From: a virus
Length of the DNA stretch: 55,038 nt
Virus record (IMG/VR): IMGVR_UViG_3300025131_000047
Coordinates: 1 to 55,038 of that record
Reading direction: 5' to 3' (one strand)
Shown here in pieces: positions 5,449 through 22,843 of this stretch. Numbering within the stretch: the stretch's first letter is position 1; the number at the start of each line of letters is the position of its first letter. The position numbers were made by a program, and so were the translations under genes. A model generated the notes under the pieces. The model saw only the letters and a program-made list of their open reading frames with translations, did not search any database and was not told where the DNA came from.

Positions 5449-5477
5449 ATGATAACAAATCAAATTTTAAAAATCAA
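5449..5477 (-). promoter_or_regulatory. A/T-rich sigma70-type promoter whose -35 contains an upstream stop codon
   Basis: TTGATT, 17 bp, TATCAT. The TGA of the -35 hexamer (5474-5476) is the stop codon of the gene 5474-5668. Confidence 0.75.
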
Positions 5478-5668
5478 GTCTTTTTTTCAATTTTTTCCAA
5501 ATCAGATTCAAATTCGTCAGATTGCCGACCGTCCATCCAGCGCACCGTCACAAGTGGGGGTACACGATGAAATTCGTCGGATGGATTAAGCCTTATTAAC
5601 GATACGACCAGCCCTATGTTCTTTGGGTCTTCTTTGTAGAATACCAAATCACCGATACTTATTACCAC
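5474..5668 (-). CDS. small SH3/KOW-like protein (K-V-G-D-L-V family), 64 aa
   Basis: Starts at GTG within the last codons of 5662-5931 (CGTGGTAA junction). It reads MVISIGDLVFYK, then NIGLVVSLIRLN, VTVRWMDGRQSDEF and a basic end. This is the strand order seen in all family members: G-D-L-V, G-L-V, V-x-W-x-D-G. The fold is inferred as a small beta barrel. Its stop codon lies inside the -35 box of the next promoter. Confidence 0.65.
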   Translation of the reverse strand: MVISIGDLVFYKEDPKNIGLVVSLIRLNPSDEFHRVPPLVTVRWMDGRQSDEFESDLEKIEKKT

Positions 5669-5931
5669 GGGCCTTTCACGATTACTTTGTCGGCAATTCC
5701 CTGCTTTAGTTGTTCTACTTCTTCGCGGCATGAATCAGTAAGCGACCACTTGACGTGTCCAGTGTCCTCGCATATATCGCCCCTTACCTTGCCTTCTACT
5801 GCGAGGGCGAATAATTGCATAAGCATGTGATTTGTTTCTGGAGTGTCTATATTTCCGCTATCATAATGCTCTGCTATAGAGCGTAGAATTTTCGTACCGT
5901 GCTTGAATATTTCTCTACGTGTCTCGTTCAT
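5662..5931 (-). CDS. hypothetical protein, 89 aa
   Basis: Helical N-terminus (MNETRREIFKHGTKILRSIAEHY shortened here as residues 1-23), then ALAVEGKVRGDICEDTGHV. Not recognised. It overlaps 5474-5668 by 7 nt. Confidence 0.55.
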   Translation of the reverse strand: MNETRREIFKHGTKILRSIAEHYDSGNIDTPETNHMLMQLFALAVEGKVRGDICEDTGHVKWSLTDSCREEVEQLKQGIADKVIVKGPW

Positions 5932-5946
5932 TTTATTTGCCGTCCT

Positions 5947-6180
5947 TTAAATACAGTTATATTTTATAAAGCCGTAGTTGGTCCCGCGAATATCATCTTC
6001 GCCTATGATAACTAGGGCTTGCTCGTCTTTTAATTCTAAGAGTGAAGATAGAAACCCTTCTTCTGTGACGTTGCCTCTTCCTAAATCTAAGGAAGTAAAA
6101 TTAACGTCACTGTAGACTTGGCCGAGTGATTTTCCGATTTGATTAAATGGCAGACTTTCTATAATCCACCGTTTAATCAT
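5947..6180 (-). CDS. hypothetical protein, 77 aa
   Basis: Soluble protein starting MIKRWIIESLPFNQ, with a possible mixed alpha/beta fold. Not recognised. Its start overlaps the stop of the 27-aa membrane peptide upstream by 8 nt. Confidence 0.55.
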   Translation of the reverse strand: MIKRWIIESLPFNQIGKSLGQVYSDVNFTSLDLGRGNVTEEGFLSSLLELKDEQALVIIGEDDIRGTNYGFIKYNCI

Positions 6181-6256
6181 TTTTCCACCAGTCTATCATC
6201 ATTTGGCCAAAGAATAGTCCTATGGCTATTGCTATGATGCTTCCTAAAAAATCCAT
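6173..6256 (-). CDS. membrane micropeptide, 27 aa
   Basis: ATG with GAGGAAA six to ten bases upstream. It encodes MDFLGSIIAIAIGLFFG followed by a short polar tail, a single membrane helix covering most of the peptide. The stop overlaps the next start by 8 nt. Function unknown; holin-like or regulatory micropeptides are options. Confidence 0.55.
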   Translation of the reverse strand: MDFLGSIIAIAIGLFFGQMMIDWWKND

Positions 6257-6283
6257 TTTGTTATTTCCTCTCTGTTTAAGTTG

Positions 6284-6357
6284 TACCCTGGACAGGATTC
6301 GAACCTGTGACCCGCTGCTTAGAAGGCAGCTGCTCTATCCGACTGAGCTACCAGGGC
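6284..6357 (-). tRNA. tRNA-Arg (anticodon UCU)
   Basis: A complete 74-nt cloverleaf. The acceptor stem GCCCTGG pairs with CCAGGGT (one G-U). The D-arm is GCTC/GAGC, the anticodon stem GCTGC/GCAGC with loop CTTCTAA, and the T-arm ACAGG-TTCGAAT-CCTGT; discriminator A. CCA is not encoded. It would read AGA/AGG codons. It lies at the 3' end of the small-protein array, and its first 23 nt are also the end of the 6335-6517 reading frame. Confidence 0.95.
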
Positions 6358-21019: not shown

Positions 21020-21519
21020 TTTCTTAAAATCTCCAAGTGTTTCAACTCTACTAGTTTATGAACATTATATTTCTGCCAAAACACCTTTGCGCGACCAATA
21101 TCTTCTTCTATTCCCACCACCAGCCCGACAAGGTTGTCGGTGGTGCGTGGGATCCACCTGACCAGATCACCAACTTTAACGACGTGTTCTAGCACGGCGA
21201 GATGACGACCTTCTAGCCGGTCTACCCTTTCCCCTAGATCTATGACGAATGTGTCGGCGGGAAACTGGGCGGCGGTGCCTTCTATAAACTTTTCTAGAAG
21301 GTCTTCTGGTGTATCTCTTTCTTTGGTGGCGTACTTTTTTCTGAGATCGCAGAATACGTTTCCTGGCAATTCTGTGGCGGATTCTCGGCCGGGAAGGACT
21401 ACGCAGGCGGGGTCGAACAGCTGGTCTTCTTGGCGCAACTCTGACGCGGGTGTGCCGCGATACCGGTCTATAACTCGCCCTCCTACTCCTAACATAAGTA
21501 CGATAATTACCAAAAACAA
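21016..21519 (-). CDS. membrane-anchored protein with C-terminal K-V-G-D-L-V domain, 167 aa
   Basis: Residues 1-15 (MFLVIIVLMLGVGGR) form an anchor or signal; residues 20-110 are an acidic soluble region with two or three cysteines. Residues 113-167 are a K-V-G-D-L-V unit (VVKVGDLVRW, VGLVVGIEED, AKVFWQKY, LKHLEILRK). No separate start codon lies at the unit, so this is a real fusion. Its first 115 codons overlap the end of 21176-21718 in another frame. Confidence 0.65.
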   Translation of the reverse strand: MFLVIIVLMLGVGGRVIDRYRGTPASELRQEDQLFDPACVVLPGRESATELPGNVFCDLRKKYATKERDTPEDLLEKFIEGTAAQFPADTFVIDLGERVDRLEGRHLAVLEHVVKVGDLVRWIPRTTDNLVGLVVGIEEDIGRAKVFWQKYNVHKLVELKHLEILRK

Positions 21520-21718
21520 CTCTTATCGTAGGCTCCGTCCAATATTCAACATAGGCACTGTCTACTACATGCAGCTCTATATTTGATGGCATCGTGTCTA
21601 TCTGATATACATAATCAGGAGAAGATAATAGCACTGACCCGTCGATAAGGCATGCCGATGTGGCATACCCTCCGAACCCACTTACCACGTATAAAATACA
21701 TGCCTTTATTATAATCAT
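21176..21718 (-). CDS. exported protein with Arg-rich tail, overlapping gene, 180 aa
   Basis: Residues 1-22 look like a signal peptide (MIIIKACILYVVSGFGGYA), residues 23-70 like an ordinary soluble domain. Residues 72-180 are extremely rich in Arg, Ser and Pro (RRPSRKVYRRHRRPVSRR). The Arg-rich part lies entirely over the 21016-21519 gene in a second frame. Either both are made (overprinting), or a stop was lost and the tail is spurious. The N-terminal 70 residues, which do not overlap, support a real gene. Confidence 0.5.
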   Translation of the reverse strand: MIIIKACILYVVSGFGGYATSACLIDGSVLLSSPDYVYQIDTMPSNIELHVVDSAYVEYWTEPTIRVVFGNYRTYVRSRRASYRPVSRHTRVRVAPRRPAVRPRLRSPSRPRIRHRIARKRILRSQKKVRHQRKRYTRRPSRKVYRRHRRPVSRRHIRHRSRGKGRPARRSSSRRARTRR

Positions 21719-22290
21719 TTCATTTCCTCTCGTATTTCCGGTGAGTTCCAGTCAACCCAGTTCGGAAACCTTTCTTTAAATTCTTTTTCTACTTGCTCGC
21801 TGTAGTTTGGTGTTTTCTCTTTTCCGTGAAACTCTATAAACCACTCGTCAACAAGGTCGGGAGTGTCTGAATTAAGCAGGTACGGCAAAATATCATATTC
21901 TGCACCTTCTACATCTATCTTCAGTATTGTATGCGCGTTGTCAATTTTGTTTTCTCTTATCCACTCGGCTAGGTCAATACACTCCATGTCAACACATATG
22001 CTGGGATCCGTGCTGTACTTGCCTGCAATCAAAGAAGATCCGGTTCGGGCTCCCCAAATTTGTGGAAAAAACTTTTTTAATTCATTCGCTTTCCAAACTG
22101 CCACATTGTGCAGGACCACCTTTTCGTGATCTGAATATTCATCTTCCAGCACTTCAAAGTTTTCTGATTGTGGTTCAAAAGAATCAATCCTTTCTATTCT
22201 GTCGCCATATTTCATAAATGCCCACTGAATAGACTGTCCCTTGTTTGCTCCACAGTCTATGAAATGAATCCTTTTGTTATTATTTTTCAT
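21715..22290 (-). CDS. FkbM-family methyltransferase, 191 aa
   Basis: SAM-binding motif I F-I-D-C-G-A-N-K-G-Q-S (about 10-20), motif II with IERIDSFEPQ (about 33-42), and the FkbM hallmark I-L-K-I-D-V-E-G-A-E-Y (about 122-132). FkbM enzymes O-methylate sugars or polyketides. In a phage it could methylate a host surface glycan or modify a virion glycan; the target is unknown. Cytoplasmic. Overlaps neighbours by 4 and 11 nt. Confidence 0.85.
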   Translation of the reverse strand: MKNNNKRIHFIDCGANKGQSIQWAFMKYGDRIERIDSFEPQSENFEVLEDEYSDHEKVVLHNVAVWKANELKKFFPQIWGARTGSSLIAGKYSTDPSICVDMECIDLAEWIRENKIDNAHTILKIDVEGAEYDILPYLLNSDTPDLVDEWFIEFHGKEKTPNYSEQVEKEFKERFPNWVDWNSPEIREEMK

Positions 22291-22537
22291 TTAACTTCTC
22301 TAACTTCTCTAGGCATAATAATTTTTGTTGTTCCATTTTTGTAAGTTCACTTTTGTAGGACATGCAGCGATTGTACACAGAAACACATATTTCCGGAATT
22401 TGTTCTTCTTCCGCTCGGACTGAAACGTTTTGCCTGTAAGACGTAGCGTACCCTATGGTGAAACAGACGCCTGCCACTAACAATAATATCCCAATATCCA
22501 CCAACCAATAAAATGTTTTTCTATTAAAAATTTTCAT
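22280..22537 (-). CDS. membrane-anchored hypothetical protein, 85 aa
   Basis: The start MKIFNRK is chosen for its AAGGAAA ribosome site; an earlier start would precede transcription. One transmembrane helix (about 12-31), then an external helical region with two cysteines and a coiled-coil end (ELTKMEQQKLLCLEKLEKL). It also fits an i-spanin plan but has no lipoprotein after it. Confidence 0.6.
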   Translation of the reverse strand: MKIFNRKTFYWLVDIGILLLVAGVCFTIGYATSYRQNVSVRAEEEQIPEICVSVYNRCMSYKSELTKMEQQKLLCLEKLEKLNEK

Positions 22538-22560
22538 TTTCCTTTTTTTATTCTTAAACA

Positions 22561-22589
22561 ATTATGACATATAAATCTAATTTTTTCAA
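22561..22589 (-). promoter_or_regulatory. sigma70-type promoter
   Basis: TTGAAA, 17 bp, CATAAT; 24 nt upstream of 22280-22537. Drives the FkbM operon and the genes to 20.2 kb. Confidence 0.65.
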
Positions 22590-22606
22590 GTAAAAAATTA
22601 ATTAAT

Positions 22607-22843
22607 TTAAATCTTTATCAACCAATGCTTGGCAACCCATCCAGTTCTGAATTCTAACTTCCCGCGAAGTGGACTTCTAGTAAAAAACCACTCATGAATA
22701 GTGCCGGGAACCATATATACCGATGCCCGTGGACTTCTTAATTCATCTTCCATTTTTAATATCAGCCCCAACCAATCCTTCCCGTAGAGAACGTGGTAAA
22801 CCAGATCACCTATTTGTAGATTTGGTTCCTTTTTCCATGTCAT
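22607..22843 (-). CDS. K-V-G-D-L-V family protein, 78 aa
   Basis: Reads MTWKKEPNLQIGDLVYHV, WLGLILKMEDE, then a longer loop and LEFRTGWVAKHWLIKI. The family's I-G-D-L-V and G-L-I-L are intact. Its start overlaps the membrane peptide upstream by 38 nt. Confidence 0.65.
   Translation of the reverse strand: MTWKKEPNLQIGDLVYHVLYGKDWLGLILKMEDELRSPRASVYMVPGTIHEWFFTRSPLRGKLEFRTGWVAKHWLIKI

Follow-up and report, generated by a model that had tools for sequence, protein, structure and literature searches.

The DNA considered here is a stretch of 55,038 nucleotides (nt), positions 1 to 55,038 of the IMG/VR virus record IMGVR_UViG_3300025131_000047, which we call the window. Between 5474 and 22843 its minus strand carries a family of small genes, many of them joined end to start by a fixed overlap, and this joint is the subject of the present report. 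Two tight arrays, A (7157-6335) and B (15589-13204), hold part of the family, and the remaining members stand singly. The window also encodes phage replication proteins (a DnaB-like helicase, a UvsX-like recombinase, a phage single-stranded DNA-binding protein, two DNA polymerases and a ribonucleotide reductase) and GroEL.

An initial annotation had proposed that these genes form one protein family laid out as tandem cassettes, and both points held up. We trained a family hidden Markov model (HMM) on 870 units taken from other phage records, excluding the window and its near twin G029, and trimmed the first residue and the last four residues of each training unit so that the junction residues were left out. 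Run against all 386 open reading frames (ORFs) of at least 40 amino acids (aa) in the window, the model recovered 20 members at E <= 0.0067 (16 of them at E <= 5.1e-5), all within the region originally named; they are the rows marked as members in Table 1. Twenty shuffled sets together gave no match at E <= 0.1 and 29 at E <= 1. Three ORFs on the original list fared worse: 18563 (E 4.9) and 7154 (E 1.1, presumably the sixth of the "six" placed at 6335-7402) found no support, and 17391 was marginal (E 0.056). The ORF at 14005 scored weakly (E 0.47), but we have kept it as a probable family unit because it has a KVG start, a junction and a unit 91% identical in protein sequence in a related locus, L104. 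Starts placed by the junction differ in four cases from those of the ORF list, which are too early: 6665 rather than 6695, 6831 rather than 6912, 13760 rather than 13811, and 15435 rather than 15480.

The conserved "edges" of the family are a single DNA element read in two frames, ...GGAGGTTATCA GTGAAAGTCGGTGA.... The codons GAG GTT ATC AGT GAA AGT CGG TGA (EVISESR-stop) also contain GTG AAA GTC GGT GA. (VKVGD), so that the LEVISESR-stop of one protein and the V/M-KVGD start of the next share a 14-nt overlap, and the LEV codons carry the Shine-Dalgarno sequence of the following gene, GGAGGT, five bases before its start. In the window, a LEVISESR-type end is found in all nine members that have the 14-nt overlap and in none of the other 11, some of which overlap a neighbor by a different length (4 or 29 nt). 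The nine are 6504, 6652 (ESW), 6770 (no stop after the motif), 6972 (LELISESR), 13593 (CEVINESR), 14153 (VELISESR), 14591 (ISEAK, with a degenerate junction), 14772 (FEVISESR) and 15422. The LEVISESR motif that had been assigned to the whole family is thus present, variants included, in nine of the 20 members and missing from the other 11. The 6770 unit runs on for 16 residues past the absent junction stop, and its copy in G029 ends normally. A minor joint, a 4-nt ATGA overlap following an NGV(D/S)IP end, is seen at 14353-14356 and in G029 at 48394-48397. At the end of array A, a tRNA-Arg (TCT) gene at 6283-6357 overlaps the last codons of the final unit; a related unit in L104 has the same SPGSS(I/V)G peptide at its end.

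We collected further loci with a junction pattern that lies inside the conserved block, a procedure that favors junctions; at least 120 stretches in viral contigs carry the pattern. Among 1,044 unique units (repeats of identical protein dropped), 380 have an [SN]ESR end. Seven of these lie at contig edges; of the remaining 373, 368 are followed by an open frame of 40 aa or more that begins in the 14-nt overlap. The commonest offset to the next unit is 14 nt (544 cases), followed by 4 nt (62). The residue before ESR is S or N because the next gene starts with GTG or ATG (S with GTG, 337; N with ATG, 173), a consequence of the overlap rather than an independent test of it. The glutamate of LEV is encoded by GAG in 461 of 470 overlapped units, compared with 1,229 of 2,693 glutamates in unit bodies (repeats of identical DNA dropped). 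Conservation at the junction spans about -13 to +22 relative to the start codon, some 35 nt, and then falls; at starts with no overlapping upstream unit the Shine-Dalgarno sequence is weak. Chains of overlapping units run without interruption to as many as 13 (unique units only). An E-S-R type end occurs in 488 of 565 overlapped units, 24 of 406 units with no near successor and none of 101 with another kind of near successor. For a LEVI-like last strand the corresponding fractions are 0.90, 0.76 and 0.69, against 0.30-0.32 in shuffled controls. Since LEVI is kept in all three classes and SESR almost only where there is an overlap, LEVI belongs to the protein structure and SESR-stop to the overlap.

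Comparison with the near twin shows what happens at these joints. G029 is a record of 190,183 base pairs (bp) whose RecA is identical to that of the window over residues 2-376 of 376, and the two align in long blocks of 97.5-99.9% DNA identity that are interrupted in both arrays. In array B of G029 the first unit is replaced, the 14772 unit is replaced, and one other unit stands in place of 14005, 13757 and 13593. Of the array A units, G029 shares 6770, 6652 and 6335 and no others, with the first two in reversed order, and it has three units differing from those of the window. Outside the arrays the two differ at 4277-4628, at about 28739-29084 and at 49772-50892. The initial annotation had expected units to be shuffled among relatives, and gain, loss, replacement and re-ordering are all seen here; of the two outcomes it had set beforehand as refuting, unrelated folds and identical unit sets in relatives, neither was seen.

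The alignment locates the breakpoints with nearly single-base precision. In the first swap, the two sequences agree up to and including ATGAAAGTCGGTGA, lose identity over the next few bases and agree again at ATCAGTGAAAGTCGGTGA. All 12 window/G029 array breakpoints fall at -14 to +24 of one of the window's own gene starts, a stretch making up 19% of array DNA (P about 2e-9 under a uniform rule). In 29 locus pairs, with distances taken to the nearest unit start in either sequence, 85 of 103 breakpoints lie at -14 to +24, where 20.7 are expected. That count leaves out 13 locus pairs taken as the same record or identical copies, the G029 loci L063 and L069 against the window, and all pairs involving L129-L131; it also leaves out blocks shorter than 60 nt or below 95% identity, and block ends within 40 nt of a sequence end, outside the arrays, or with another block continuing on the same diagonal within 40 nt. 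Some records stayed in the count more than once, as copies with different locus names.

The pool from which units are drawn is large. The 1,098 units collected fall into 665 clusters, 481 of them singletons, and all 19 large records searched (158-293 kilobases (kb), picked for having junctions) hold 8-29 units each. Near-identical units are common to 23 record pairs. The window's 13593 unit recurs at 98.2% in L031, whose RecA is 76% identical to the window's; 231 bp of G029 recur at 98.7% in L059 (RecA 77% identical), with ends at -14 and +20 of unit starts; and a further G029 unit is 99.4% identical in L029. As far as these records go, single cassettes recur in otherwise diverged phages. For the 50 records behind the loci, RecA is at least 63% identical to the window's in 36, only 36-38% in four, and was not found in ten. 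Cultured phages gave little: the window's RecA is at most 34% identical among the 12 matches listed and below 60% in all 1,557, and neither a megablast of window positions 6300-16000 nor a tblastn of one unit matched any of 50,697 phage records. Against cultured phage records, a made-up consensus protein hit six at E of 1 or more and the junction consensus 121 with a best E of 0.5, both at chance level. Aeromonas phage 65 was inspected as a cultured relative and dropped, no cultured match being convincing. In a genome collection, four contigs carry the junction pattern, three with units (7, 11 and 4) and the fourth with none, and one of them equals an IMG/VR virus contig in length and is identical to it over 7.6 kb. 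The contigs with units come from metagenome-assembled genomes binned as Methylococcaceae (L126, NHDW01000006.1), Halobacteriovorax (L127, PBIO01000025.1) and Flavobacteriales (L124, DQKQ01000147.1); since L127 matches the IMG/VR contig L088, all three may be binned phage contigs.

Individual units are conserved where they are shared. From 454 ungapped unit pairs, 262 were usable and 98 disjoint; the median ratio of non-synonymous to synonymous divergence (dN/dS) is 0.20, the pooled pN/pS is 0.31, and dN exceeds dS in one of the 98 disjoint orthologue pairs. Judged by these ratios, orthologous units are under purifying selection.

We read the arrays as a self-joining gene cassette system in which exchange takes place at the fused-end junction, and would put the probability of this reading at about three in four. 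At the level of sequence, comparison shows the overlap, the embedded Shine-Dalgarno sequence, breakpoints at junctions, replacement, loss and re-ordering, purifying selection, and a pool of hundreds of distinct cassettes. Each cassette would be one gene for an SH3-like barrel of ~50-85 aa, and the ~35-nt junction would do three jobs: end one protein, provide the Shine-Dalgarno sequence and start codon of the next gene, and encode that gene's KVGDLV. Because most junctions are nearly alike, recombination between two of them would insert, remove or swap whole cassettes without disturbing the reading frames or the ribosome-binding site. In the window and 16 relatives, records that may be incomplete, we found no reverse transcriptase (PF00078), tyrosine recombinase (PF00589) or serine recombinase (PF00239), compared with 3, 14 and 10 of 14 controls, respectively. 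As a UvsX-like recombinase and a phage-type single-stranded DNA-binding protein are present, and no integrase, resolvase or reverse transcriptase turned up in the records searched, we infer exchange by homologous recombination or strand annealing.

Several points weigh against this reading. The exchange is known from comparison of sequences, which gives neither its direction nor its enzyme, and an ERF-type annealing protein was not found in 20 records, which may be incomplete. Five of the 373 [SN]ESR ends have no long following frame. GAG is also favored in the last strand of units with no near successor (131 of 181, below the overlapped ones), so that the codon bias does not come from the 14-nt overlap alone. 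The loci were fetched by the junction pattern, yet of the 554 junctions the 379 that do not match it have the same conserved block. Many of the 29 locus pairs are interrelated or repeat a record, and starts were taken in either sequence; together these make the pooled P (6e-42) far smaller than it should be. Eighteen of the 103 breakpoints lie outside -14 to +24, and there are 84 partly shared unit pairs among the matches listed, some of them merely diverged orthologues; exchange thus occurs inside units too, giving mosaicism within them. Finally, the 14 least diverged pairs pool at a pN/pS of 0.72, and some units may be evolving fast.

The initial annotation had suggested a small SH3- or KOW-like barrel, and the two of the 20 members that were modelled with AlphaFold2 agree with it. 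The 6972 unit gives a five-stranded barrel at a predicted local distance difference test (pLDDT) score of 88.1, and the 20792 unit, with its long loop, gives five strands at lower confidence (pLDDT 76.5). The solved folds nearest to the 6972 model are Spt5/NusG KOW, Tudor, PsaE and YorP; against the Spt5 KOW domain (4zn1), VIA-align gives Z 8.3 with a root mean square deviation (rmsd) of 1.7 over 51 residues. For the 20792 model the best match is the restriction enzyme Hpy99I in its N-terminal part (3fc3; 23% identity, with Z 8.6 and rmsd 1.0 across 52 residues), and SH3 domains match at Z 8.2 and below (Lyn SH3, Z 8.2, rmsd 2.2 over 61). Hpy99I is also among the matches of the 6972 model (Z 7.3). 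A Z near 8 is nothing unusual and carries no functional meaning, and sequence identity is below 30% in nearly all structural matches listed. With the 6972 model, Foldseek found nothing at E <= 0.001 (best E 0.013), nor did a search of viral models at the same threshold. Among sequence families, the best PHROG (v4) covers just 3 of 86 members at E <= 0.01 and NCBIfam covers none of the 86. The conserved positions are the GD turn, core V/L/I, the G ahead of strand 2, V-x-W and the last strand; by inspection there appears to be no conserved set of catalytic residues. The family, as modelled, is an SH3-like small barrel of five strands.

Alternatively, the cassettes might be KOW-like binders of nucleic acid, RNA polymerase or the ribosome, with a tuning effect on host transcription or translation, and not proteins with many different targets. 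The best solved relative of the family profile is indeed the KOW domain of Thermotoga NusG (E 0.0016), and Spt5 and NusG KOW are among the top folds of the 6972 model. These matches are weak, however, with Tudor, PsaE and YorP scoring alike, and the 20792 model is closer to peptide-binding SH3 domains and the N-terminal part of Hpy99I. Pfam KOW (PF00467) reaches E <= 0.01 in one of 86 members, and the best of ten window proteins scores 12.5 bits against a cut-off of 22.3, which none of them reaches. The net charge of the units also spreads from about -11 to +8 (1st to 99th percentile). We consider so uniform a role unlikely.

The high turnover between near-identical phages, the 481 singletons among 665 clusters and the pN/pS of the least diverged pairs would all fit neutral or selfish modules that come and go with no use to the phage. 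But dN is not above dS in 97 of the 98 disjoint pairs, with the low median given above, and every one of the 19 large records, chosen for their junctions, carries units; we regard this explanation as quite improbable.

Less probable again is tandem duplication with unequal crossing-over within one phage, the junction being the scar of duplication. There are direct repeats at junctions, and some L097 units have a common 3' end, as such a process would leave. Core similarity is detectable, however, in only 3 of 554 adjacent unit pairs, and the best relative of a unit lies in another record in 715 cases, in the same record in 30, and is absent in 353, where the much larger set of other records favors such an outcome.

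The same arrays recur in separate assemblies. L136 and L137 agree over 19,694 bp but for one mismatch and share 13 unit starts there, L011 and L037 share 13 in 3,659 identical bp, and altogether 11 of the 12 locus pairs compared have blocks of at least 500 bp and at least 98% identity with 2-15 unit starts each, the pair L024/L061 having none at this threshold. Chimeric joining of co-occurring strains at a 30-nt repeat, which metagenomic records with most breakpoints in short repeats might lead one to suspect, is very improbable against the 11 agreeing pairs, whose assemblies may share water samples. Diversification of the loops of one scaffold, as in diversity-generating retroelements and as first proposed from the fixed edges and variable loops, has in its favor that core strands are kept while loops vary in length and sequence, but we give it hardly any weight, as the SESR end comes from the overlap, orthologous units are conserved, the 17 records gave no reverse transcriptase, and near-twin arrays differ mainly in whole units, the variation lying in which cassettes are carried.

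Known systems resemble the proposed cassette system in part. Phage mosaics are reported to form by homologous recombination in short conserved stretches where genes meet, and the joints here lie at such places too; the present sequence differs in that a single gene family contains hundreds of copies of it and in that it codes for both protein ends. PeSL, the promoter-stem-loop linkers or mobile regulatory cassettes of T4-type phages, are reportedly promoter-terminator elements. They are alike in placing a repeated linker beside small phage genes and exchanging modules with no dedicated integrase; going by that definition, the present linker differs in coding on both sides, holding a ribosome-binding site and fusing protein ends, and its cassettes are mostly of one fold family. 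At the 14-nt junctions, a scan of 5001-24000 showed nothing resembling a promoter or a terminator on the minus strand. Elsewhere in the window, two identical 81-nt promoter-like repeats (4197-4277 and 4628-4708) flank a 129-aa gene (4287-4676), and G029 aligns with one copy and without the intervening stretch, as if it had been looped out by the repeats; this looks like a second, PeSL-like linker system of the same phage.

Integrons likewise consist of small exchangeable genes in a row, linked by a shared joining element, but they use a tyrosine recombinase, not found in the 17 records, and the present joiner lies inside coding sequence. Invertase and resolvase systems differ through the serine recombinase, likewise not found there. 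Diversity-generating retroelements produce protein variety in phages on a common scaffold; they differ by their reverse transcriptase and by the purifying selection seen on units here. The units share a five-stranded barrel of ~60 residues, as modelled, with NusG/Spt5 KOW, Tudor, PsaE, YorP of Bacillus subtilis and SH3 domains, but have no significant family match. The literature searched, to which most subscription journals do not belong, yielded no description of such arrays in the parts seen. What is new, within boundary-sequence mosaicism, is that a single element serves as gene ends, ribosome-binding site and site of exchange.

As to expression, the sigma-70-like motif TTGACTTT-N15-TATNNT was counted 13 times in the window where 0.8 would be expected, always on the gene (minus) strand; ten of the sites lie in 2.8-16.7 kb and one (15228-15256) is inside array B. 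This enrichment suggests that the genes of the region may be expressed early. Further sites are at 4236-4264, 7915-7943 and 16689-16717.

Table 1. Family units, junctions and associated genes in the window.
Coordinates	Strand	Feature	Support
15422..15589	-	Array B unit 1, 55 aa, ...LEVISESR-stop; another unit in its place in G029	HMM member, E 1.5e-10
15422..15435	-	14-nt junction GTGAAAGTCGGTGA, ending the 15422 unit (SESR-stop) and starting the 15253 unit (VKVGD)	
15253..15435	-	Array B unit 2, 60 aa, retained in G029	HMM member, E 2.1e-10
14954..15199	-	Interloper gene among units, 81 aa, retained in G029	No family HMM match
14772..14957	-	Array B unit, 61 aa, MKPGDLI...FEVISESR-stop, replaced in G029	HMM member, E 1.8e-8
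14772..14785	-	14-nt junction	
14591..14785	-	Array B unit, 64 aa, ...LEVISEAK-stop	HMM member, E 3.7e-11
14591..14604	-	Degenerate 14-nt junction (GTGAGGCAAAGTAG)	
14353..14604	-	Array B unit, 83 aa, MPKLGDLL...NGVDIP-stop, 4-nt ATGA overlap with next unit	HMM member, E 0.0067
14153..14356	-	Array B unit, 67 aa, ...VELISESR-stop	HMM member, E 1.5e-11
14153..14166	-	14-nt junction, stop TAG	
14005..14166	-	Array B unit VKVGSLV, 53 aa, replaced in G029	HMM E 0.47; L104 unit 91% identical
13757..14008	-	Non-family ORF, replaced along with its neighbors in G029	
13593..13760	-	Array B unit, 55 aa, ...CEVINESR-stop, replaced in G029; L031 unit 98.2% identical	HMM member, E 5.7e-8
13593..13606	-	14-nt junction, ATG start (NESR-stop)	
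13400..13606	-	Array B unit, 68 aa	HMM member, E 1.5e-8
13204..13428	-	Array B last unit, 74 aa	HMM member, E 0.0026
12929..13171	-	Single member, 80 aa	HMM member, E 6e-4
6972..7157	-	Array A unit, 61 aa, LELISESR-stop; SH3-like barrel model	HMM member, E 1.3e-11; AlphaFold2
6972..6985	-	14-nt junction	
6770..6985	-	Array A unit, motif without SESR stop, frame continues to 71 aa; G029 copy 55 aa	HMM member
6652..6831	-	Array A unit, 59 aa, ...LEVISESW-stop; order relative to 6770 unit swapped in G029	HMM member
6652..6665	-	14-nt junction, GTT variant (ESW)	
6504..6665	-	Array A unit, 53 aa, LEVISESR-stop; absent from G029 array A; L097 and L022 units 85% identical (protein)	HMM member
6504..6517	-	14-nt junction	
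6335..6517	-	Array A last unit, 60 aa, ...SPGSSVG-stop, end runs into tRNA-Arg gene	HMM member
5474..5731	-	Single member, 85 aa	HMM member, E 3.3e-7
7940..8140	-	Single member, 66 aa	HMM member, E 0.0015
20792..21019	-	Single member, 75 aa, long first loop, modelled	HMM member, E 4.5e-6; AlphaFold2 pLDDT 76.5; SH3-like by VIA-align
21016..21519	-	ORF with family match at residues 114-165 (start as listed uncertain)	HMM member, E 9.3e-9
22607..22843	-	Single member, 78 aa	HMM member, E 5.1e-5

Some other features of the window may be recorded. Its two DNA polymerases belong to different PHROG families (35378-38827 and 52628-53827), and the first looks PolIII-alpha-like. By eye, small ORFs with lipoprotein-like signal starts are seen among the small genes at 3925-4245, 15681-16034, 16726-16935 and 19421-19663, and a 697-aa lipoprotein-like ORF at 40650-42743 has DNDCDG repeats and a VWA-like part. 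Repeats of the DNDCDG type are frequent in delta-proteobacteria-like groups and might point to the host. An intergenic repeat of ~62 nt, 76-79% alike, lies between small genes at 670-731, 1515-1576 and 2171-2232.

For proteins that are small, perhaps early, rapidly exchanged, individually conserved and varied in surface, a putative role as binders in host takeover or counter-defence fits best. Our guess, which falls a little short of an even bet, is that the units are small proteins that bind a variety of host targets, defence proteins among them, and act early in infection, and that the phage population would gain from carrying different sets. More speculatively, and rather doubtfully, there may be an integrase-free cassette library spread across diverged large uncultured phages, with the stop, ribosome-binding site and start linker as a universal recombination port. 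Phages would draw through it on an open pool of hundreds of SH3-like micro-binders, each of which would have its own host or defence target, and counter-defences could be swapped singly with the operon intact.

The proposed cassette system offers a concrete case for the debated idea of phage mosaicism through conserved boundary sequences, and it reduces two "conserved protein motifs" largely to one DNA element. Overlapping gene ends can, on this evidence, make small genes modular, the same 14 nt serving to end one gene, start the next and mark the point of exchange. It also supplies hundreds of natural ~60-residue candidate binders for trial against bacterial defence systems.

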